Source: Prosopocoilus inquinatus (lineage: Eukaryota > Arthropoda > Insecta > Coleoptera > Lucanidae). From it: a stretch of DNA of 64,000 nucleotides. The DNA is taken from assembly GCA_036172665.1 (NCBI GenBank), contig CM069872.1, positions 39,604,101-39,668,100 on the forward strand, given 5' to 3'. A program made the translations under genes and the position numbers. The notes under the pieces were generated by a model, which was given only the letters and a program-made list of their open reading frames with translations, searched no databases and was not told the origin of the DNA. Shown one piece after another: positions 3,807 through 61,668 of this stretch (positions are counted from its first letter, which is position 1; every line of letters begins with the position of its first letter).

Positions 3807-3862
3807 TGATGAACAGATAAAACAGCGACATCTTGCGCTTGCTTTTTGACCTGACATTACAA
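3807..3862 (-). repeat. Fragment of the hammerhead retroelement family
   Basis: About 55 bp match the left outer end of the ribozyme-bearing insertions at 51.4 and 56.0 kb: GATGAACAGATAAAA, then a segment like GCGACATCTT and TTTTTGACCTGACATT. The ribozyme itself is absent. The match is oriented as in the minus-strand halves of those insertions. It is followed by a T-run. Probably a heavily truncated copy. Confidence 0.65.
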
Positions 3863-4097
3863 CAATTTTTTTTTTAAAGTAACAAGGTTTACTTACGCCG
3901 CACTCGACACACCGCCGCCTCCCTGGATCGTCTCCGGAGTCACAAACAAAACTCACAAATGACTTTAACAAATTATATTACCGAAGGTTATCACTAAGTC
4001 ACAAACTGACAATAATCGTAATAATAGCGATGATGATCTGAAATACTGACTTCCTTCTGATTTACAAAATCCGTCCGTGCTGAATGCCGGTGTATTT

Positions 4098-28237: not shown

Positions 28238-28757
28238 AACAGTTTAAACAGCGACATCTTACGATAGATTTTTGACCTAACATTGCAGTGAGATAGGGAA
28301 ATTGAAGCCAGTTTGATACATATTTACATAATAAGTTATCCCATGCAAGGCAGCCGTGCTTGCAGTCATAATGAAAGTTAAAAAGAAAATGTTCCAAATC
28401 GTTTTTGATTGCAGTGAAACCCTCGAGCAGTTCTGTACAGCAAGGTATTTTTTTAAAACTTTCATATTGCTGTGACAGCAAGCATGGTCGCCTTGCATGG
28501 GGTGACTTATTATGTAGCAAACTGACTTCAATTTGTCTATTCTACTGCAATGTTAGGACAAAAAGCGATCATAGGATGTCTTTCTTTAAACTGTTCATTA
28601 CGCATTTGCGATTATCCTTGGTCGAGTCGTTTCGGTTTGCAGTGGAACTCCTAAGCTACACTTCTGTTGAAGAAGCCCCAAATAGGACTGAAAGAGCTGT
28701 ACAGAGTCTGCTTGAGGGTTTCACTGCAATCAAAAACGTTTTACAACAAAACTTTTT
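28238..28757. mobile_element. Inverted hammerhead-retroelement insertion (oldest copy)
   Basis: A minus-strand partial unit (28238 to about 28440) meets a plus-strand unit (to 28757). A 13-bp duplication AAAAATAGTTACG flanks it at 28225-28237 and 28758-28770. The left outer end AACAGTTTAAACAGCGACAT and the right end near ACAAAACTTTTT match the ends of the other insertions. The minus half begins within a few bases of the ribozyme cleavage site. Substitutions are frequent, so the copy is old, yet the duplication is perfect. Open frames here are shadows. Confidence 0.85.
28660..28708 (+). ncRNA. Degenerate hammerhead ribozyme
   Basis: Same layout as the intact ribozymes: stem I strand TTCTG, box TTGAAGA (first C changed to T), stem II AGCCCC...GGACT with one mismatch, GAAA at 28690-28693, a damaged short stem III, then TA before CAGAG. 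The C-to-T change in the invariant box should abolish or strongly reduce cleavage. Confidence 0.6.
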
Positions 28758-31007: not shown

Positions 31008-32579
31008 CACTGACCGGCAAAATTATCGCATCACTTAAAATGCGAGGACTTGGGGTTATGCGATGGTTAGAAAAATTCAAAGGCTGATTGCGTATTGTAG
31101 TAGGCTTATTAAACAAGCTCAGTAGTTGGTTATGGATACTAAAAACCAATCGACATACACTTTCTGCAAAGTTAATTGTCAAACAATCAAAACTGCGAGT
31201 GTTATTTTAATTGTTTCTACAACTATTGAATTGCATTTTTGTTAGAAATTAATGTCAGTTAATGTTTCATTTTATGCTGTTTTGTTTAATTAATCATTTT
31301 TAACGGATACAGACAAAAATGAATAGAAACAGTTATCATTTAACATCTGAACAAGCTGCAATGACAATTGCACTCTTAAATGACGGCAGGAGTCAACGCT
31401 ATGCCGGTAGAACTCTAGGAATGAATTCACGACGGTTTCTAGAATTGCTAGAAAGTACCAGGACACTGGTGAGCTCAAACGGAGGTCAGGTCAAGGTCGC
31501 AAAAGCGTTACATCTGAAGCTAATGACCGATTCGTTCTCTTATCATCTTTGCAAAATAGGCAATTAACGCCACCACAGCTCCAAAGTGAGCTTCATAATG
31601 CTAGAAATGTCGAAGTGATTGAAAGAACTATACGAAGACGACTGATAGAAAATAATTTAACCAGCAGAAGACCAGCGAATGGACCTTTACTGCTCCCATA
31701 TCACAAAAGAGCAAGGTTACAATTTGCCCGCGATCACATTCATTGGAATGCCGATGACTGAGGAAGGGTACTCTTCACGGATTTGCCCTAAATTCACTTG
31801 ATGGTCGTCTTAGAGTATGGAGAAGAGCCGGAGTACGTTATGCGGAGTGTACTATGGTTAGCACGGAAAGTTTCGGTGGCGGATCTGTTATGGTTTGGAG
31901 AGGAATCAATCTGCTCGTTAAAACAGATCTCGTTCTTGTCGCTCGTGGTGCTCTAAATATACATCGGTGCACGACCGAAATATTGGATCCATTTGCACCA
32001 TTTGTGGGAGACAATTTCCTCTTTATGCAGGATAACACACGTCCACACGTTACAAGAGTGGTGACCAGGTGCTTAGAAGAAGTCGGAATTAAAAAATTAG
32101 ACAGGCCAGCGAGAAGTGTAGACTCAAACCCTTTTGAGCAAGTTTGGAATACACTTGGCCGAAAAATCAAAGCGCGTAGAAGTCGTCCACAAACGCTTAA
32201 TGAACTCGTTCAAGCCCTTAATGAAGAGGGGGAGCAAATGCATCACGTATTCATCCAAGAGCTGATCCAAAACATGCCCCGTAAAATGGATGCAGTTATC
32301 CGAGCCGGAGGAGGTAATACCAGGTAGTAGAAACTGACCTAGAATGTGCAGGCAGATACTAAAATAAAGTTGTCTGCGTTCAAGCGAATTAAACGACACA
32401 TAAGTGTAATAATCATTTTATCAGCAGAACCGATCTGTTTTATGTAATATTTTTAGTGTATTTGTTAAAATTGAAAGTTAGTATATTATTATTAAGTTTT
32501 TTTTTTTTTTTTGATAAAGCAAAGTTTTCATAACAAAAATAGGTTTTTCTATGTGATGCGATAATTTTGCCGGTCAGTG
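31008..32579 (+). mobile_element. Tc1-type transposon, full length, 1572 bp
   Basis: The termini are 27-bp perfect inverted repeats starting CACTGACCGGCAAAATTATC, at 31008-31034 and 32553-32579. They are bounded by TA at 31006-31007 and 32580-32581, the target duplication of Tc1/mariner elements. The single transposase gene inside is broken. Perfect termini with a damaged gene suggest recent movement by transposase supplied in trans, or recent decay. Confidence 0.95.
31319..32327 (+). pseudogene. Tc1-family transposase (DD34E), three frame segments
   Basis: Segment 1 (from 31319) carries the N-terminal paired-like DNA-binding region (LTSEQAAMTIALLNDGRSQR). A shift near 31450 leads into KYQDTGELKRRSGQGR and the second helix-turn-helix region, to RARLQFARDHIHWN. 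A TGA at 31759-31761 probably replaces a tryptophan codon. A deletion of about 11 bases at about 31781 removes part of the FTDESRF motif that holds the first catalytic Asp. The last frame (31791-32327) keeps the second Asp in FMQDNTRPH (32031) and the Glu in PFEQVW (32136), 34 residues apart. The protein cannot be functional. Confidence 0.9.
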
Positions 32580-45090: not shown

Positions 45091-46170
45091 TATGAAAGTG
45101 AAGGTGAGTGACAGAACCGGATGTTGTCGTCGTAATGACGCCTTAATATGACATAAAAAATCACACCCTCCACTTTTACTTTTCTCAATGTGTAGTTTCT
45201 TATCTTCAGTAAAAACGCCATTTTTTTATTATAGAATAAGATATGTAATTTATATAAATGTTAGGGTTTCTTATTTAATAAGTAAGTTTACATAAGGTCA
45301 GATGTCTTCTTTAACGAACCTACCCGACAAAAAAATGATTACGTAAAGTTACTGCATGGACATGACCTGGGGCGCCGCTTTCCTCACTCGGAATATCAAA
45401 TTCAAAAGGAAACTAAACTAAACTAAATACTGTAAATTTTGTTCTCGACTTAAAACTTAATATTTTCCTTGCTTTTCAAAAATTCTGAGAAGAACTGCAT
45501 CCGTCTTAAGCTGCCCTCTGAAGGCTAAGTGACAGTGAAAACCGTACCCTCCTAGCTCGAACCCTTTCGAAAATACTAATTATTTTATTTAATATTCGGC
45601 GGCGCTTCCACCATATTTTCTAAGAAAAATCGCTATAACTCAGAAACGAAAAGAGATAAATTGATGCGGTTTTCACTGTACAGTCACCAGATTAGGGTGC
45701 CATTATCCTTGGAGGGAATCATTTTTTTGTCAAATAAATGAAATTTTTTCTCAACTTAAAACTTCTTATTTTCCCTGCTTTTAAGAATTTCCGGAAAGAA
45801 CTGCATCTGTCTTAAGCCACCCTCTGAGGACTAAGTAACAATGAAAACCGCATCTTCCTAGCTTCAATCGTCTCGAAGATATTAATTATTTTATTTAACA
45901 ATCGGCGGCGCTTCCACCACATGTTCTAAAAGAATCGTGATAACTCAGAAACGAAAAGAGATAGATTGATGCGGTTTTCACTGTACGGTGACCAGATAAG
46001 GGTGCCATTATCCTGTAACGGAATCATTTTTTTGTCAAATAAACGAAACTCTTTCTTAACTTAAAAATTTATGAAACAAATAAAAAAGCTTTTTAAAAAC
46101 GAGCTAAAAGAGTAATTTATTGACTTAGTTGACGTTTCGCAAATATAACTATTTGCTTTAACAAAAGTGA

Positions 46171-46548
46171 ATGAAACAAACTTTTGGTACAGCAATGGGA
46201 TCACCTCTTCCTCCTGCTTTAGCTGAAAGTGTTATGCAAAAATTAGAAAAAAAAGTATCATTAATTCGTTACCTTTTGATCTAATTTATGTTATATGTAG
46301 ATATTTTACTAATTTTACCTGATCTTAAAGTTGATTATATTTTAAAGAAATTTAATTCTTTTCATAATAGGTTACAATCTATTGTAGAAAAAGAAAATAA
46401 TAATTCCATAAGTTTCTTAGATGTAAATATTATCAAACAAAATGGTAATTTAATAACAAATTGGTATTACACACATACATGGTCAGGTAGATACATTAAC
46501 TTTAATTTCAACCAAAAAGTCACAAAATTTCAACTATTATTATTTTAA
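46171..46548 (+). pseudogene. Penelope-type reverse transcriptase, C-terminal fragment
   Basis: The frame opens KQTFGTAMGSPLPPALAESV, the motif preceding the catalytic box in Penelope-like polymerases. A stop follows near 46282, then YVDILL where YVDDIL is expected, so one catalytic Asp is missing. FNSFHNRLQSIVEKENNNSI and SFLDVNI, then NGNLITNWYYTHTW, follow; these are the thumb-side motifs of the family. Everything upstream of this point is missing. Confidence 0.8.
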
Positions 46549-46559
46549 CTGACCGTGCA

Positions 46560-47190
46560 GTATTACTTTCAGACAAATTATTTATAACTGAAATATTAAA
46601 TTTAAATTAAAAAAAAATCTTATTCAAAATTCTTACCCTGAGAAACTTATTGCCTCAGTAATAAATAATCGTTTAACGCATTTGAAAAGTGTTAATTGTA
46701 TATTTAACAATTTACAAAAAAAATCAGGAAATAAATACTTACCATTACCTTATATAGAACCTTTACATGATTCTTACACATTTTTTCAAAGAATTGCATT
46801 TACATTTAGCCAGTAAATCATCTGATAATTTTAACATTACTTTTACTAATTTAAAAACAAAAACACCTGAATTTCAAATTCCAAATGTAGTTTATCAGGT
46901 AAATTGTCAAAGCTGTAACTCAGCTTATATAGGTGAAACTAGCTAAAATTAAAAAAAAAGGTTAGGTCAGCATAAATATTATATCCAAAAAAAGAATGAG
47001 AGTCATTCAATGTTAGCAGAACATTGACTCTTAACTAAACATATTTTTGATTTTGAAAATGCTAAAATTCTTTATCAGGAGTCTAACACGTTGAAACGTA
47101 GATTGATTGAAATGTATAAATTAAAAATGTGTAATAATTCAATTAATAAAAGAAGAGACTTTACAAATTTGAATGATATATTTTGTTGAT
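46560..47190 (+). pseudogene. Penelope-type C-terminal part with GIY-YIG endonuclease
   Basis: After shifts the text continues as KKNLIQNSYPEKLIASVINN, then YLPLPYIEPL, then FQIPNVVYQVNCQSC and NSAYIGETS. The CxxC pair followed by AYIGET is the hallmark of the GIY-YIG domain in Penelope-like elements. Downstream KKRLGQHK, SMLAEH and the final KRRLIEMYKLKMCNN agree with the family. In-frame stops occur after GETS and near LAEH. In active elements this nuclease nicks the target DNA. Confidence 0.8.
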
Positions 47191-47519
47191 TAAATGAGAT
47201 ATAATAATCGGAAACTTCCTTGCTTATATATTAGAAAAACTGTATTATTATGTTATTTTTATTATTGTTAGAGAATTGTTGTAATTTTTGTTACAACAAT
47301 TTATTTGCATACTCTAGTTAGGTTTTACCAGGATTTCCATAACTCTTGCAGTAAATACTGGAGTATATGTTAAGACGGGCCTGACCGCATCAATAATGAT
47401 ATTCTTGGTTTACAAGTTATATCTTTGCTGATAATTTTTTTTTACCACTACCAATCTCTTCACAATTAATTAAAAAAATAATTCTAGGCTAAATTGTTTA
47501 TATTTTCCGTTATTCAATT

Positions 47520-47560
47520 TTGATAAAGCAAATAATTATATTTGCGAAACGTCAAGTAAG
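47520..47560 (+). ncRNA. Degenerate hammerhead motif in the Penelope-like terminus
   Basis: TTGATAA stands where CTGANGA is required. Then come a perfect 7-bp stem II (GCAAATA/TATTTGC, loop ATTA), GAAA at 47546-47549, a two-base-pair stem III (ACGT) and C at 47553 as cleavage position. The inverted copy at about 46130-46165 keeps the stem II, GAAA and GTC but reads TTGTTAA in the box. The layout matches the hammerheads known from Penelope-like elements. The changed box makes cleavage unlikely in this copy. Confidence 0.65.
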
Positions 47561-48190
47561 TCAATAAATTACTCTTTTAGCTGGTTTTTAAAAAGCTTTT
47601 TTATTTGTTTCACATTCACTGCAATGTTCACGAGCAAGACCTATCCAAAAATTAAAACTTAATATTTCCCTTGCTTTTCAAAATTTCCGGAAAGAACTGC
47701 ATCTGTCTTAAGCTGCTCTCCGAGGACTAAGTGACAGTGAAAACCGCACCCTCCTAGCTCGAACCCTTTCGAAGATATTAATTATTTTATTTAACATTCG
47801 GCGGCGCTTCCGCCATATTTTCTAAGGAAAGTCGCGATTACTCAGAAACGAAAGGAGACAAATTGATGCGGTTTTCACTGTACGATGACCAGATAAGGGT
47901 GCCATTATAATGGGAGGAAATCAATTTCTTGTCAAATAAATGAAACTTTTTCTCAACTTAGAACTTAATATTTCCCCTTCTTTTCAAAATTTCCGGAAAG
48001 AACTGCATCTGCCTTAAGCTGCTCTCCGAGGACTAAGTGACAGTGAAAACCGCATCCTCCTAGCTCGAACCCTTTCGAAGATATTAATTATTTTATTTAA
48101 CATTCGGCGGTGCTTCTGCCACATTTTCTAAGAAAAATCGCGATAACTCAGAAACGAGCAGAGATAGATTGATGAGGTTTTCACTGTGAG

Positions 48191-50762: not shown

Positions 50763-51622
50763 ATAATATACCATCAAATGTCCTTGAAATTAGAAATTTT
50801 GAGTTCATTAGGTGTGATCGTAATGAAGACGGCGGAGGCTTGGGTGTGTATGTCCACAAATTCATAAAGTATACATTACATAAGTCAGAAATCACAAATT
50901 CCATGGAATCTATGGCTCAAATTATGTTTTGAAAGTATGTGTATTGGGGTTGTGTACAGACTGCCATATTATAACTATTCTGAATTTTTTCCTTACTTTG
51001 AAGATGTGATATTAGAACTGTCTGCATCTTATGATGTATATTTTTGGTGATTTTAATATCGATCTATCTTTGCCTTATTACTCACTCGCTTTGCAATTTT
51101 TTGAACTTCTTTATACATTAGACCTGAAGCAAATCATTGACGAGCCTACCCGAACCACTGTAAGAAGTTCTACACTAATTGATCACATCATTACTAACTC
51201 TATTAATGAAACTAATGATTTCGGTGTAATGGATACAATCACTTCGTCCGATCATTCACTAATTTGGTGTAGAGTCTCAGTAAACCGTAAACCTTTTATC
51301 GAGATTTCAGATCATTCAATTTAAATAATTTTAATTTGGATTTGTTAGGAGTATTTTGGGATGAAATTTATTTCTTTATATTTATCGATGACATTAATAG
51401 GAAAGTAGAATTTGTCAATAGTAATCTTTTATGAACAGATAAAATAGCGACATCTTACTATCGCTTTTTGACCTGACATTGCAGTAGGGTAACAAATTGA
51501 AGCGGGATTTGCTCCTAATAAGTTCCCCATGCAAGGCGGCCATGCTTGCTGTCAAAGCATAATGAAAGATTTTAGAAAAATTTCGTGCAAATCGTTTTTG
51601 ATTGCAGCGAGAACCTCGAGCA

Positions 51623-51671
51623 GCCTCTGGACAGCTGTTTCAGCCCTGCTTGGGGCTTCTTCAGCAGAAAC
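51623..51671 (-). ncRNA. Hammerhead ribozyme, intact, minus strand
   Basis: On the minus strand: stem I GTTTCTG pairs with CAGAGGC; box CTGAAGA at 51664-51658; stem II AGCCC/GGGCT with loop CAAGCA; GAAA at 51641-51638; stem III ACAGCTGT (no loop, as in dimer-dependent short-stem hammerheads); GUC site with predicted cleavage between 51630 and 51629. Outside stem I, CGAGC/GCTCG and a long imperfect stem (TTGCAGCGGGA with TCTCGCTGCAA) extend the fold. Confidence 0.88.
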
Positions 51672-51905
51672 GTAGCTCGACATTCCCGCTGCAAACAAAA
51701 ACGACTTGCCCAATTTATTCGCATTTGCGATGTAAGAGTGATGAACAGATAAAATAGCGACATCTTACTATCGCTTTTTGACCTGACATTGCAGTAAAAA
51801 AAGCGATAGTAAGATGTCGCTATTTTATCTGTTCATCACTCTTACATCGCAAATGCGAATAAATTGGGCAAGTCGTTTTTGTTTGCAGCGGGAATGTCGA
51901 GCTAC

Positions 51906-51954
51906 GTTTCTGCTGAAGAAGCCCCAAGCAGGGCTGAAACAGCTGTCCAGAGGC
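51906..51954 (+). ncRNA. Hammerhead ribozyme, intact, first of a tandem pair
   Basis: Stem I 51906-51912 (GTTTCTG) pairs with 51948-51954 (CAGAGGC) through two G-U pairs. CTGAAGA is at 51913-51919. Stem II is 51920-51924 with 51931-51935. GAAA is at 51936-51939. The short stem III is 51939-51946. C17 is at 51947. All invariant core positions are present. Predicted cleavage falls between 51947 and 51948. Outer pairing GCAGCG/CGCTGC and CGTTTTTG/CAAAAACG extends stem I to about 51874-51985. Confidence 0.9.
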
Positions 51955-52215
51955 TGCTCGAGGTTCTCGCTGCAATCAAAAACGATTTGCACGAAATTTT
52001 TCTAAAATCTTTCATTATGCTTTGACAGCAAGCATGGCCGCCTTGCATGGGGAACTTATTAGGAGCAAATCCCGCTTCAATTTGTTACCCTACTGCAATG
52101 TCAGGTCAAAAAGCGATAGTAAGATGTCGCTATTTTATCTGTTCATCACTCTTACATCGCAAATGCGAATAAATTGGGCAAGTCGTTTTTGTTTGCAGCG
52201 GGAATGTCGAGCTAC

Positions 52216-52264
52216 GTTTCTGCTGAAGAAGCCCCAAGCAGGGCTGAAACAGCTGTCCAGAGGC
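52216..52264 (+). ncRNA. Hammerhead ribozyme, intact, second of a tandem pair
   Basis: Identical to the ribozyme 310 bp upstream: CTGAAGA at 52223-52229, GAAA at 52246-52249, cleavage after C at 52257. A transcript crossing both would release 51948-52257, a 310-nt monomer that could be ligated into a circle by a host RNA ligase. That product is a prediction. Confidence 0.9.
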
Positions 52265-53987
52265 TGCTCGAGGTTCTCGCTGCAATCAAAAACGATTTGC
52301 ACGAAATTTTTCTAGTAATCTTTTAGAATTATTTTTGATACACATGTGCCTACGCGAAAACATCATGCTTTGAACAAATTCTCTCCTTGGTTAACTGATA
52401 ATTTAAAATTGATGATGAATTTGCGGGATAAGGCGTTAAAAACATTTCAGCGCTCGCATTCTCAAGAGCACTGGACGTATTATATGACTTTAAGAAATTT
52501 AGTAACACTTTCAGTTAGGTCTGAAAAGAAAGCGTATTTAGAATACTCGATCAGAAATTGCAAATCTAAAAATATCTGGAAACATCTCGAAGATTTCGGG
52601 GTTCATAATAACAAACAAAAATTATATTCCAACGAGTCTTGGTGATGCTAATTCAATTAATATTCATTTTTTGACCTACTTGCAACTTGACGGCGATGAC
52701 TCTCATCAGGTAACTAAGTATTATATCAACAAATTACTGGATGTTAAATTTACATTTTCCCCCGTCGCTGAAGACGAAATTTCTAAACTTCCCTTAGGAA
52801 TTACTAGCAAATCTTACGGTGCTGAAGATATTAACATTGATCTTATTTACTTTTGTTGCCCATACCTCTTGCCTATTTTCACAGACATTATCAATAACTG
52901 AGGGTGTTTTTCTCAGGTGCTGGAAAGAAGCTAGGGTACTGCTTTTACCTGAAGTTACCAACCCAAAATCCTCAGCAGATATTCGCCCCATTAATTTAAT
53001 GGCCAATACTCTCTAAAGTACTTGAAACAGTAATAGAAAAACAATTAAGAGAGTTTCTTAACGTCCATGACATTATCCCGGATAAGCAGTCTGGCTTTAG
53101 GTCGCGCTATAGTTGCGCAAGTGCTTGTAACTGCTATTATTGATGACGTTAATAAATTTGTAGTCTTAATTCTTCTGGACTATAGCAAAGCATTTGACCT
53201 TGTTAAACATGAAATTTTACTTGCTAGACTGAAATCTATAGGTCTTATATAGGCAAATCTCAAAGAGTTTATTTTACTGGAGTGTTTTCTGATTCCTAGC
53301 AAGTCAATCGTGGTCCACCGCAAGGATCAATCTTGGGACCACTTTTATATTCTATTTACACCTCTTCATTTACTAAAGTAATAAAGCATTGCTGCTATCA
53401 TTTCTATGCTGACGACACTCAGCTATATTACTCTTTCAAAACTAATGACGTCGCTTTATCTTGTGAACTTGTGAATCTAGATATAATAAATAAGCTCATT
53501 GAAATCTTGAATCAGCATGGATTAAGATTTAATGCTACTAAAACTTCTGTTTTACTATTTGTAGGAGGTAACTCTAGTGCAGACGTCGTGAAAGCTCTAC
53601 GCTTGAATTTGAAGAATTCATCTTTGAATTTATCGGACTCTTGCAAAAACTTAGCCTTGTATATGGACTGCAATCTCAAATTTATCACTCACGACACGAA
53701 TGTTATTCGTAGAGCTTTTACTAATCTCTAATTAATTTATGTTAACCGACACTACTTAACAAAATCTATCAAATACACGTTATGTGAGACGTTAGTACTT
53801 TTACATCTTAACTATTCTGACACTATTCTTGATTCTTTTTTGTATCTTATATTCGGATTCACTTCGACTTCGAGTCCAAAACTATTGCATGCGACTTATT
53901 TTCCGAAGACATAGACAACATGTCTCACATAAACTAAAGGATTTGAAGTGGCTAAATATGAAAAATGGACGGTTTTTGCATACTGCT

Positions 53988-54056: not shown

Positions 54057-54454
54057 TTGCATACTGCTCAATTTTACATTAAGATTCTCACCTATAAATG
54101 CCCACCGTACTTATATAACAAGATCCGATGCCGAACAGACAATATTAGAAGCATAAAAGTGAGTTTTTCAAGCGGTGTTTTTCTTATCGTATAACGAACA
54201 TTACGAACTCCCTTCCGCAAGAACGTATGAAATCAACTCCGGCTATGTTCGGTAAAAAGTTAAAACTAATACTATTAGATAAGCAGAACCACTGTGCTAT
54301 CAAAACTTCAATTGTTCATACCACCAGCGTCGTTCTGGATCATTTGAATGTGTGTTAATTTCATCGATGTGTGCCATATCTTTACCATGATCAATGTTTA
54401 ATACTAATGGGATCAGGAGGAAGACTTTATTAAGCATAAGTTTTCTTTTTTTAA

Positions 54455-54650
54455 AAAATTTTTGTGCAAATCGTTTTTGATTGCAGTGAAAACCTGGAGC
54501 AGCCTCTGTACAGCTGTTTCAGCCCTACTTGGGGCTTCGTCAGCAGAGACGAAGCTCGACATTCCCACTGCAAACAAAAACGACTTGTCCAATTTATTTG
54601 CAAATGCGATGTAAGAGATGAACAGATAAAATAGCTACATCTTACGATCT
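54455..54650 (-). mobile_element. Single hammerhead retroelement copy in the LINE 3' region
   Basis: One minus-strand unit without an inverted partner. It ends on the left at TTTTTGTGCAAATCG and on the right at TAGCTACATCTTACGAT. It differs from the 51-kb copies at several sites. Flanking duplication is not clear (CTTTTTTTAA versus CTTTCTAATAA). It interrupts the LINE 3' untranslated region. Confidence 0.8.
54502..54550 (-). ncRNA. Hammerhead ribozyme variant, minus strand
   Basis: Box CTGACGA (54543-54537) keeps the CUGANGA consensus with a different N7. Stem I GTCTCTG/CAGAGGC is fully paired. Stem II is AGCCC/GGGCT with loop CAAGTA. GAAA is at 54520-54517 and stem III is ACAGCTGT. The cleavage triplet is GUA instead of GUC, predicted between 54509 and 54508. 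The changes all preserve the structure. Confidence 0.85.
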
Positions 54651-55739
54651 TTCTAATAAAACTGAATTTGTTCGTTTGTTTCTTTTTTCAAATGTATGCT
54701 TAATAAACGTATTATTATTATTATTATGTAATAAAAAGAATTGAGTAACTGTAGGAAATTTCAAATTGCATAAACAAAAGAGTCAATGATATACAGGCTG
54801 TTTCAAATTCGACCCTCACCATGGGGATCTCGCTTATTCGAAGAGATATAAGGTAGGTTTAAATTTGGCAAAGTTGCTAAATTTGCTGAGTATTAATAAT
54901 CCGGAAAGAAAAAGTTTCTATGTTAACTCTTATTCGAAATAATTGTAAAAAAAGAAAAATTGTAATTTTCTTATTTTGCCTCTATCTTCCTTATTTAAAG
55001 AGATATCAAAAAAATAGAAGTACGTTGTTAAGGCACTTTTCAATTCTCTACACAGTGGTAAACACTATTTTTCTATAACAAGTTTCGTCAAATTGATACC
55101 ATCATCAAGTTCATTTTTTCTTATGGCGCCCATATTGAAATATAGTGGCCAAAGAATCTACTCATTATGCCGATTACGGTAATATAGTACATGTTATAAA
55201 AATTCTTTAAAACATGGCCAGATTAAAAATGTTTAACGTGAAATAAGAAATATTCTAATCAACAGAAGATAGTTGAGGGTTTAAATTAAAAATAATGTAT
55301 TCGTTAGACAGTAATTTACTAAATACTTTTTGTTTGCACAACAAAAACACAGAAACAGCAAGAATCGATACTTTTGAACCTATTTAGAGAACAAACGACA
55401 GCTTAATATTGATTATTGAAATGTATTGTTTCGACGAAGAAAGGAAATCAATTACTAGCAAAAATGACCGATGTGAGTGGATGTATTTTCAGGTTTACTT
55501 ATATAGAGTAATTTTTTAATTTTTTTATCAACCTTGCCACGGAATTTAAAGGGCATGTCTTAGCTTAGTGTTACGTAACCTCCAGATCTGTAATGAGTTA
55601 TTTTTGAATTAACAAATGATTATACTACCCAAATTTCATGAAAAGCTGTATTTAACTTCACACATAACAGTCATTTTTGTTCCTGTATTATTGTAATCGA
55701 TTCTCATTTTTCAAAATTACTTTTGATTGTAATATTATT

Positions 55740-55993
55740 GAATAGTTTAAACAGCGACACCCTACAAACGCTTTTTGACCTAACATTGCATTAGGAGTGA
55801 CAAGTTGAACCCAATTTGCTACATAATAAGTCATCTCATGCAAGGCGGCCGTCCATGCCTGCTGCCAAAGCACAGTTTAAAGTTATAAAAAATTGTTGCA
55901 AATCGTTTTTGATGAAGCCCCAAATTGAGCTGAAACAGCTTTACAGAGACTGCTCGATGAATTCACTCCAAAAAAAAGATTTGCAAAAAATTA
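55740..55993. mobile_element. Inverted hammerhead retroelement insertion, diverged
   Basis: A minus-strand part (55740 to about 55913) joins a plus-strand part (to 55993). TGTAATATTATT at 55728-55739 and TGTATTATTATT at 55994-56005 are the target duplication with one mismatch. The plus part starts inside the ribozyme (GAAGCCCCAAATTGAGCTGA), so CTGA of the box and the 5' stem I strand are missing. GAAACAGCT...CAGAGACTGCTCGA survives. No intact ribozyme. Confidence 0.82.
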
Positions 55994-56025
55994 TGTATTA
56001 TTATTATTCTAAGCTATTATTTATT

Positions 56026-56329
56026 AACAGATAAAATAGCGACATCTTACTATCGCTTTTTGACCTGACATTGCAGTAGGGTAGACAAATTGAAGCGGGA
56101 TTTGCTCCTAATAAGTTCCCCATGCAAGGCGGCCATGCTTGCTGTCAAGGATAATGAAAATTTTAGAAATTTAATTGGGCAAGTCGTTTTTGTTTGCAGC
56201 GGGAATGTCGAGCTACGTCTCTGCTGAAGAAGCCCCAAGCAGGGCTGAAACAGCTGTCCAGAGGCTGCTCGAGGTTCTCGCTGCAATCAAAAACGATTTG
56301 CACAAATTTTTTTTTTTTTTTTTTTTTTT
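56026..56329. mobile_element. Inverted hammerhead retroelement insertion, young
   Basis: A minus-strand part (56026 to about 56164) joins a plus-strand part holding a complete ribozyme. It ends in a T-run of about 24 bases (56306-56329) where other copies have TTTTTCT. CTATTATTTATT flanks it at 56014-56025 and 56330-56341. It landed 20 bp from the right duplication of the 55740-55993 copy. Confidence 0.9.
56217..56265 (+). ncRNA. Hammerhead ribozyme, intact
   Basis: Stem I GTCTCTG (56217-56223) pairs with CAGAGGC (56259-56265) with only one G-U pair, better than the 51-kb copies. CTGAAGA is at 56224-56230, stem II is AGCCC/GGGCT, GAAA is at 56247-56250, stem III is ACAGCTGT, and cleavage is after C at 56258. 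Relative to the 51.9-kb ribozyme, the stem I change TTTCTG to TCTCTG turns a G-U into a C-G pair. Confidence 0.9.
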
Positions 56330-59246: not shown

Positions 59247-60543
59247 AGGACTGTATCGAAAATTATTGACGCACTAAAAATCAGTATTAATGTTTACAAG
59301 GGGATATAAAATTTTACTAGTATTTGAACTAACACTTTATTTTGAATATATTTAATAACGAATACAACAGAAATTGTAACATTTCAGATATTTTTGGCTA
59401 GTTTTCGAACTTCTTTTCTTATACTACACATTAGGGTTTGGACATCAGTTTCTGAAAAGGACTTGGAAACTTTTGACCAGTTTTCTTTGAACTGGTCGAG
59501 TGTGTTGGCTGCTTCAACATGTTTCCGGAGTCTTTCTTTCGTGATTGCCCAAAATCTTTCAATTGGCCGAACTTCCGGGCAGTTATGCGGGTTCATGTCT
59601 TTATGGACGAAACTGACCTTTTTATCTGCATACCACTTTTGTGCCAAACCACTGTAATGGCAGGTGGCCAAATCAGGCCAAAATAATACATCCCCTTCGC
59701 GTCTTCGAATTATTGGTAAAATTCGCTTTTCTAGACATTCTTTCACATACGAATCAGTTTTCATAGACTGGTCAAGGGTTTGCTTTTCATACTGTACTCG
59801 CATATTGCTTGCCATACAAGCACTTTCTTTCCGAACTTTACCACGAAGATTGACTTCTCCGCCTTTAGGATGTCACTCTCTTGCGCAACTGTGTAGTACT
59901 GTGGTCCTGGTAATGTTTTATAGTCTAGTTTAACGTATGTTTCGTCGTCCATGATTATGCACTGTCTATTATTTGTCAAAACAGTATCGTACAACTTTCT
60001 AGTCTTGTTTTTACCGATTCCGTTTGCTTTTTAGTTCTTTTAGGACATTTCTGTTTTCTGTAGGTCTTTAAATTATTCCTTACTTTTGCCCTTTGCACCA
60101 TTCCAATTGAGGTTCTAAGTTTTTTTTGCCACATCTCTGACAGACAGCTCTTTCTTCGATTGAAATGCCTTGCAATTTTTTTTATCCATGGTAGAGTTAG
60201 ATGGACCTGACTTTCGCCAGATCTTGGCAAGTCCTTGAAAGTAGCATGTTCACCGTATCGTTTTATAGTCGTTCGAACCGCTTTCTCGCTAATTCCTTTC
60301 AGCTTCGCTAATTTTCGGTAAGACAAACCTTTTATTAAGCACCAATTGTCCACAGTTGATTTTCTTTTTAATACTGACAAAATCGGCATGCTGTATATTT
60401 AATAATAATAACCAAAATTAAGCAAACAAAACTGTAACTTGACATCTATAAAAAAAATGTTACCTGTCACAACGAATGAAATTTTATTCAAAGCTGCCTT
60501 GATCGCGCGTCATTGTTGCGTCCATAATTTTCGATACAGTCCT
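59247..60543 (-). mobile_element. ITm-type DD37E transposon, about 1.3 kb
   Basis: Terminal inverted repeats begin AGGACTGTATCGAAAATTAT at the left and match the right end (rc) with one change in the first 25 bases. TA at 60544-60545 is the right target site; the left flank has TG where TA is expected, probably a mutation. It contains a broken transposase on the minus strand. Confidence 0.88.
59384..60389 (-). pseudogene. DD37E transposase, three frame segments
   Basis: From 60389 downward: N-terminal helix-turn-helix (SYRKLAKLKGISEKAVRTTI), then LPRSGESQVHLT and a second DNA-binding region. A shift near 59985 leads to CIIMDDETYVKLDY (first Asp near 59945), KVLVWQAIC. Another shift near 59762 leads to YVKECLEKRILPII, then LFWPDLATCHYS (second Asp 59674-59672) and RPIERFWAITK (Glu 59560-59558). 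There are 37 residues between the second Asp and the Glu, the spacing of the DD37E clade first recognised in mosquitoes. Two shifts inactivate it, though all three catalytic residues are kept. Confidence 0.88.
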
Positions 60544-61025
60544 TAAGTAGACATCATTCGAGCAATTTGTAGAAAATATTTTGGAAATCGATTTCCATCC
60601 GAAAACCAAGAGCTACTAACAAAGAAAATCAAGATCCAAAAGTCTCCAAGACTGTTTAAAGAATTGGAGATAAAAAGGGGTTGAAAAGAGGTTATTTAGC
60701 TCGTTGGTTTTTATGGTTATTATTGGAACAAGGGAAAAAGTTCTCGTCTTTTTTAACCTGTCACCCTTCTCCACCCCCGTCTGCACGTGTTCTCTTTTAT
60801 GCTTATATTTTACAAAGATACCTTTAATCATAATGAACATGTAAAATAGCGACATCTTACTATCGCTTTTTGACCTAACATTGCAGTAGGATAGACAAAT
60901 TGAAGCGGGATTTGCTCCTAATGAGTCCCCCATGCAAGGCGGCCATGCTTGCTGTGAAAGCATAATGAAAGTTTTTCAAAAAATTTTGTGGAAATCGTTT
61001 TTGATTGCAGTGAGAACCTCGAGCA

Positions 61026-61074
61026 GCCTCTGGACAGCTGTTTCAGCCCTGCTTGGTGCTTCTTCAGCAGAAAC
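61026..61074 (-). ncRNA. Hammerhead ribozyme, one stem II mismatch
   Basis: Box CTGAAGA (61067-61061), GAAA, ACAGCTGT and GUC are present with stem I GTTTCTG/CAGAGGC. Stem II reads AGCAC against GGGCT, giving one A-G mismatch. Predicted cleavage lies between 61033 and 61032. Activity is likely reduced rather than lost. Confidence 0.82.
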
Positions 61075-61549
61075 GTAGCTCGACAATCCCACTGCAGACC
61101 AAAAACGACTTGCCCAATTTATTCGCAATTGCGATGTAAGAATGATGAACATGTAAAATAGCGACATCTTACTATCGCTTTTTGACCTAACATTGCAGTA
61201 GGATAGACAAATTGAAGCGGGATTTGCTCCTAATGAGTCCCCCATGCAAGGCGGCCCAAGCAGGGCTGAAACAGCTGTCCAGAGGCTGCTCGAGGTTCTC
61301 ACTGCAATCAAAAACGATTTGCACAAAATTTTTCTAAAATCTTTCATTATGCTTTGACAGCAAGCATGGCCGCCTTGCATGGGGGACTCATTAGGAGCAA
61401 ATCTCGCTTCAATTTGTCTATCCTACTGCAATGTCAGGTCAAAAAGCGATAGTAAGATGTCGCTATTTTACATGTTCATCATTCTTACATCGCAATCGCG
61501 AATAAATTGGGCAAGTCGTTTTTGGTCTGCAGTGGAAATGTCGAGCTAC

Positions 61550-61598
61550 GTTTCTGCTGAAGAAGCCCCAAGCAGGGCTGAAACAGCTGTCCAGAGGC
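61550..61598 (+). ncRNA. Hammerhead ribozyme, intact
   Basis: CTGAAGA at 61557-61563, stem II AGCCC/GGGCT with loop CAAGCA, GAAA at 61580-61583, stem III ACAGCTGT, C17 at 61591, stem I GTTTCTG/CAGAGGC. Identical in the core to the 51.9-kb ribozymes, though the outer stem differs (GGTCTGCAGTGGAAATG instead of TGTTTGCAGCGGGAATG). Confidence 0.9.
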
Positions 61599-61668
61599 TG
61601 CTCGAGGTTCTCACTGCAATCAAAAACGATTTGCACAAAATTTTTCTAAAATTTTCTTTAATCATAAT

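Follow-up and report, generated by a model that had tools for sequence, protein, structure and literature searches.

A 64,000-nt window of the genome of the lucanid beetle Prosopocoilus inquinatus (assembly GCA_036172665.1, contig CM069872.1, forward-strand positions 39,604,101–39,668,100) contained a non-coding insertion with hammerhead ribozymes, insertion B, which was assigned to the metazoan retrozymes without long terminal repeats (LTRs). Insertion B (51432–52312, 881 bp; all coordinates refer to the window unless a locus is named) was bounded by exact 13-bp target-site duplications, the left copy at 51419–51431 and the right copy at 52313–52325, so that insertion and duplications together spanned 51419–52325. 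The duplicated 13-mer was TAGTAATCTTTTA, and none of 500 random flank pairs equalled the match between the two copies. The insertion was composed of two inverted arms. The left arm, on the minus strand (51432–51796, ~365 nt, 1.18 units), was 100% identical to the unit and had its outer end at unit position ~196–199, and the right arm, on the plus strand (51798–52312, 515 nt, 1.66 units), had its outer end at unit position ~55–65. A 310-bp direct repeat (51783–52004 and 52093–52314) and a 349-nt inverted repeat of 100% identity (51431–51779 and 51798–52146), with 18 nt separating its arms, were contained in the insertion. An earlier sequence-only reading of the window had placed the element at 51432–52313, which fits the insertion between the duplications.

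Three hammerhead cores, from C3 to the cut-site C17, were located in insertion B by a descriptor scan, two on the plus strand (51913–51947 and 52223–52257) and one on the minus strand (51630–51664). The predicted cuts after 51947 and 52257 would delimit a 310-nt monomer on the plus strand (51948–52257), which corresponds to unit positions 1–310. The sequence-only reading had described two type I hammerheads on the plus strand at a spacing of 310 bp, with a third on the minus strand, which repeat analysis and the descriptor scan confirmed, and its 310-nt monomer agrees with the scan. Its account of the minus-strand hammerhead was correct in position and incomplete in context, as this hammerhead belongs to the other arm of a head-to-head pair, itself flanked by a 13-bp duplication that had gone unmentioned. 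All three hammerheads contained CUGAAGA, GAA, a five-pair stem II, a GUC site, and a seven-pair stem I. Stem III was formed by two pairs with the 4-nt loop AGCU, or alternatively by three pairs with 2 nt. Beyond an internal loop, stem I was continued by a 35-nt inverted repeat (86%), and the region 52178–52300 had a fold of −73 kcal/mol (z −10.6). In total, seven hammerheads were counted across the window by the descriptor scan, against zero in 20 windows randomised with a Markov-1 model. No Rfam family matched anywhere in the window at its gathering score, and Hammerhead_1 was absent from the Rfam listing at E ≤ 1 for a 1201-base stretch. The covariance-model check that the sequence-only reading had proposed therefore gave no match at the gathering score, and in a 141-base search it gave a significant, sub-threshold match to Hammerhead_1 at 52217–52263 (23.8 bits, with the gathering score at 34; E 5.6e-4). 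Rfam microRNA matches obtained at a permissive threshold fell on the palindromes and stem I, below their own gathering scores, and were discarded.

The unit was a non-coding tandem sequence of 310 nt with a GC content of 44%. The longest reading frame in insertion B was 125 aa from stop to stop and consisted of unit sequence. Around the 310-nt circle of insertion B the longest ATG frame was 93 aa; many copies are 311 nt long, and the frame may not persist in them. No LTR-like repeat was found in the repeat search of insertion B, which included no search aimed at a primer-binding site or polypurine tract; the absence of an LTR had been read from the sequence before and is normal for metazoan non-LTR retrozymes according to passages of PMC7229834. 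The target of insertion B was a decayed non-LTR retrotransposon (long interspersed nuclear element, LINE), with an endonuclease-like piece at 51016–51321, below the Pfam cut-off, and an RVT_1 domain at 53300–53728 (Pfam, E 1.4e-11). When the flanks were rejoined with a single copy of the duplication, one open LINE frame ran across the site.

The genome (649,647,856 bases in 173 contigs) was searched with the unit. Scoring of 40 of the 1273 first-look candidates gave at least 203 matches, and the copies elsewhere in the genome that the sequence-only reading had anticipated are thus present. At least eight matches were 100% identical over 310 bases, namely the unit of the window itself and seven units in two other insertions. 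These identical units suggest that the family is young and may be active today, and they bear out the recent activity that had been proposed from the window. Among the matches listed, 38 clusters were distinguished, insertion B and 37 other loci, and all 37 loci were retrieved. No retrozyme copy was found in 40 kb from four arbitrary places of the genome. The anatomy of the insertions was analysed in 47 clusters in 43 stretches (the 37 loci and six window excerpts), with an identity of at least 93% (70% for older window copies) and with neighbours no more than 45 nt apart joined. Outer ends were expressed in unit coordinates, in which 1 is 51948 and 310 is 52257.

Both orientations were present in 37 of the 47 clusters, and one orientation only in 10. 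All 37 mixed clusters ran minus-then-plus, a head-to-head order in which the 3′ ends are outermost, and no tail-to-tail arrangement occurred. Two of these clusters, at L039 and the second at L034, were dropped as one end lay at the edge of the stretch, which left 35 two-armed insertions with both ends visible (32 from the loci and insertions A, B, and C of the window). In 34 of the 35, the outer ends were located at two fixed places of the unit, 45–75 and 190–212. The ~60 end was on the left in 19 and on the right in 15 of these 34. At L055, two clusters were scored as one-orientation; their plus arms had 90–91% identity, below the cut-off, with ends at 61 and 207–209. In the circular fold predicted for the family sequence (−119.9 kcal/mol, with 65% of the bases in pairs), the single-stranded segment 48–67 contained the ~60 ends, and the hairpin closing at ~195 had the ~196 ends at its foot.

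Long inverted repeats flanked by target-site duplications are also what a DNA foldback or miniature inverted-repeat transposable element would present, if the inverted units moved as DNA. The two outer ends are unequal (~60 and ~196), and both the inner junction and the arm lengths vary between insertions, so that each insertion looks built anew; movement as DNA is very improbable. Palindromic assembly artefacts are hardly credible: long perfect palindromes are a known hazard of assembly, yet the two sides have different unit ends, and 32 places carry exact duplications.

Exact duplications of 12–15 bp flanked 32 of the 35 insertions, with lengths of 12 nt in 15, 13 nt in 11, 14 nt in three, and 15 nt in three. 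The three insertions without an exact long duplication were L034 (5 nt), L044 (7 nt by script, 15 nt by eye), and L066 (8 nt by script; 12 nt with one mismatch by eye). The A+T content of the 32 duplications was 86%, compared with 67% in the outer flanks. The bases beside the duplications had a similar composition on the two sides once one of them was mirrored. For the two sides respectively, guanine at +1 was found in 16 and 15 of the 32 insertions, thymine at +2 in 25 and 25, and adenine at −9 in 23 and 26; with the sides pooled, T at +2 amounted to 50 of 64 and G at +1 to 31 of 64. The target motif can be abbreviated TSD|GTT. Such a mirror-symmetric target site points to an endonuclease that would cut both target strands in the same manner.

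The arms and junctions were analysed in 32 insertions with 64 arms (30 loci and insertions B and C; L034, L059, and A were excluded). The arms were 70–1159 nt long with a median of 520 nt, and 56 of the 64 exceeded one unit. The hammerhead cut site was crossed by 61 of the 64 arms, and arms of up to 3.7 units were present in the genome. The inner ends were scattered over the unit. Microhomology was present at most junctions: an overlap of at least 2 nt was found in 27 of 32 compared with 17% expected, four junctions had a gap, and one had a 1-nt overlap.

The mismatch per site was 0.40% within arms (76/18862), 0.52% between the arms of one insertion (148/28697), and 1.15% between insertions (20319/1759868), as counted with hand-set arm borders and with overlaps excluded. 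Permutation of the arm partners gave a value as low as that observed in none of 500 trials. At sites covered at least three times, 21 substitutions were present in all passes of both arms, 68 in a single pass, and five were mixed, gaps being ignored in these counts. This sharing of variants fits a single RNA read repeatedly around, and would equally fit a linear multimer for which a homogeneous arm had been the template.

The template could accordingly be proposed to be an uncut linear multimeric transcript rather than a circle, as genomic arms of up to 3.7 units could be transcribed, and passages of PMC11167929 report that the Penelope-like protein of Anolis inserted unprocessed RNA in vitro and that hammerhead cleavage was dispensable. 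The 43 stretches contained 136 intact hammerheads in the descriptor scan (a separate BLAST count gave 140 hammerhead segments of full length, whatever their state), so multimers should be cut. In addition, variants are either common to the passes or confined to one of them, apart from five of 94 substitutions that are mixed, although a multimer copied from an older, homogeneous arm would give the same picture. A linear template is rather unlikely.

A circular template is part of the mechanism that we consider probable, in which the family is a non-autonomous metazoan retrozyme. A transcript of tandem arms would cleave itself at the hammerheads, as the anatomy suggests, and release a monomer of 310–311 nt. 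The monomer would then be closed into a circle, a step supported by the copies that cross the cut site and pass around the unit several times. An endonuclease and reverse transcriptase (RT) would make cuts 12–13 nt apart in the two target strands, at AT-rich places where a weak symmetric motif occurs, and leave 3′ overhangs; this stagger is suggested by the duplications and the mirror-symmetric motif. Both 3′ ends would serve as primers for reverse transcription, which would start on the circle at ~60 from one end and at ~196 from the other and would often continue for more than one round. The two cDNAs would finally meet and be joined head-to-head, mostly through microhomology. The enzyme would most likely be that of a Penelope-like element (PLE).

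A LINE could be the carrier instead, with the head-to-head form produced by ordinary LINE twin priming. LINE remains are present in the window, and insertion B sits within one. Twin priming likewise inverts the 5′ part and leaves duplications of similar size and short junction overlaps, and the ~60 end lies at a short A/T tract that is at times expanded (insertion D and L044, by eye). Twin priming is a minority event among LINE insertions, and its internal starts are scattered, whereas all 35 two-armed insertions were inverted and both start points were fixed in 34 of the 35. A 3′ end shared with a LINE, or a poly(A) end, would also be expected from twin priming; no long poly(A) tail stood out past the unit end in 32 borders, examined by eye over 12 bases each. 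Carriage by a LINE is accordingly quite unlikely.

The comparison with Penelope-like elements was possible within the window, in which a decayed element of this type was located at 46072–47646 on the plus strand. It contained an RT piece (46285–46545), a GIY-YIG-like piece (~46890–47180), and inverted ends of 101 bp with 95% identity (46072–46172 and 47512–47612), of which the right end alone was extended by 34 nt. The RT piece had no Pfam match and no homologue was found for it; we take it to be Penelope-like from its motifs, the GIY-YIG-like piece, and the inverted ends. A relic of a hammerhead was present from 47520, with TTGATAA at the position of the hammerhead motif CTGATGA, and with GAAACGTC retained. 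The target of this relic was a repeat (45400–46070 and 47640–47900) of which the window contains several diverged copies, as judged by eye. The retrozyme insertions share the plan of the relic with a larger spacing: extension of one arm beyond head-to-head ends, as in Penelope-type insertions, was found in 34 of the 35. The common plan suggests a common enzyme.

Published work on these elements is used here from excerpts of the papers cited. On an AT-rich target, the purified Penelope-like protein of Anolis cleaves both strands and extends them, and it initiates inside the RNA at two sites that correspond to the genomic tail (PMC11167929). Penelope copies carry head-to-head inverted pseudo-LTRs (pLTRs), one with a 31-bp tail, and several have duplications of 8–10 bp, which are absent from others (PMC3846280). 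The retrozyme is thus like the hammerhead-containing Penelope-like elements in its head-to-head inverted ends, two alternative outer ends, and AT-rich targets (PMC3846280; PMC11167929), as well as in its short duplications, the extension of both strands, and the presence of a type I hammerhead within the terminal repeat or close to it. It differs in its length of 310 nt without an RT or GIY-YIG frame, and in its start points, which are ~136 nt apart compared with 30–40 nt in the excerpts on Penelope-like elements.

We lean slightly towards a more general form of this mechanism, in which ribozyme-made circles would be integrated from two sides, the ends of a staggered cut priming rolling reverse transcription at two internal sites chosen by the enzyme, and the two cDNAs, most of them exceeding one unit, being joined through microhomology. 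The retrozyme would then be a parasite of Penelope-type integration, and an inverted pLTR plus tail would be a general mark of that process.

Several observations weigh against the proposed mechanism or its Penelope-like enzyme. The tail spacing of the relic was 34 nt, compared with ~136 nt in the retrozyme, and the duplication of the relic itself was poor (~9 nt with one mismatch, by eye). No Penelope matches were obtained in 67 retrieved loci, and no intact Penelope element was seen in the sequence examined. A common recognition motif of the relic ends and the unit was considered, as ACTGCAATGT was present in both and a 20-column match ended at ~196, and was rejected, since shuffles were equal in 47 and 208 of 1000. 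Among the insertions, L034 was an exception, with outer ends at 68 and 159 and with neither a ~196 end nor a duplication. L041, L048, and L056 were one-armed with no duplication detected, and L031 and L059 contained additional short inverted pieces internally. Five of 64 inner ends were within 5 nt of the cut site compared with about two expected, which run-off at cut RNA might explain. The arms of L065 (G000:C1:57796900-57799500) differed at unit positions 246 and 252 in all passes, so that one insertion drew on two RNA molecules; this locus supplied two of the five mixed substitutions, which separated the arms cleanly. Finally, the 37 loci were the best-scoring and youngest copies, and the sample is biased to that extent. 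In the 40 kb from the four arbitrary places, no convincing Penelope piece was found, with two weak matches in L070 (E 0.15 and 0.40).

Metazoan non-LTR retrozymes are described in the excerpts of PMC7229834 as tandem non-coding units of 170–400 nt that contain a type I hammerhead with a short stem III, with a GC content below 45–50%, without LTR, primer-binding site, or polypurine tract, and with duplications, when present, longer than the 4 bp of plants; they are expressed as linear and circular RNA. The present family matches this description in the type I hammerhead in each unit, the short stem III, the length of 310 nt, the GC content of 44%, the animal host, and the lack of an LTR-like repeat, and its duplications also exceed 4 bp (12–15 bp in 32 of 35). 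The retrozyme design proposed in the sequence-only reading therefore stands, and its impression of an unnamed family was incomplete, as the kind is that of PMC7229834; the interpretation was partly supported as a whole. The family differs from that description in its layout, as the excerpts present tandem repeats and make no mention of a two-ended head-to-head pair. Plant LTR retrozymes share the non-coding sequence, the tandem hammerheads, and the RNA circles, which are proposed here on the grounds given above; they differ in their type III hammerheads, LTRs, 4-bp duplications, and circles of 600–800 nt (excerpts of PMC7229834).

Animal retrozymes, their circles, and a proposal of mobilization by Penelope elements have been published (PMC7229834; PMC7761336; PMC11722881). 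The enzyme that moves them was given as LINEs or PLEs, with PLEs as a strong candidate, in PMC7229834, and again as "LINEs or PLEs" in PMC11722881. The kind of element is thus known. In the excerpts covered, which did not include the supplement of PMC7229834 or papers on Penelope hammerheads and Terminons, no description of animal retrozyme insertions as head-to-head pairs with two fixed ends was found. With the fixed pair of ends, the symmetric motif, and arms that run through the cut site, the enzyme question becomes testable by sequence in any genome, and the two start sites on one circle offer a concrete assay.

Other copies of the family were located in the window. Insertion C (60835–61655) was head-to-head with 93–95% identity and an exact 13-bp duplication, and contained hammerheads at 61033–61067 on the minus strand, with a three-pair stem II, and at 61557–61591 on the plus strand. 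Insertion A (28238–28757) was older (75–77% identity) and likewise head-to-head with an exact 13-bp duplication; the descriptor scan gave no intact hammerhead in it. Insertion D (56026–56329) had an exact 12-bp duplication and a hammerhead at 56224–56258 on the plus strand. It was head-to-head with both outer ends at the usual places by eye, the script having fused it with copy E. The older copy E (55728–56013) lay beside D, or D lay inside E, and no duplication around it was convincing (random pairs matched as well in 56 of 500 cases). At the ~60 end, tracts of T or A were expanded to more than 12 nt at 56300–56329 and at 1990–2040 of L044 (by eye), as if the polymerase had slipped at the start.

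Copy F (54449–54649, minus strand) had one arm with its outer end at unit ~60 and a hammerhead at 54509–54543 with a GUA site, and no target-site duplication was detected around it. The sequence TTTATTAAGCATA, adjoining copy F at 54426–54438, recurred inverted across F at 54695–54707, as seen by eye. Fragment G (3807–3875, minus strand) was a single arm of 57 nt with an 11-nt duplication containing one mismatch (17 of 500 random pairs equal). In addition, pieces of two Tc1/mariner-like transposases were present in the window at 31758–32324 and 59387–59872 (DDE_3, below the Pfam cut-off).

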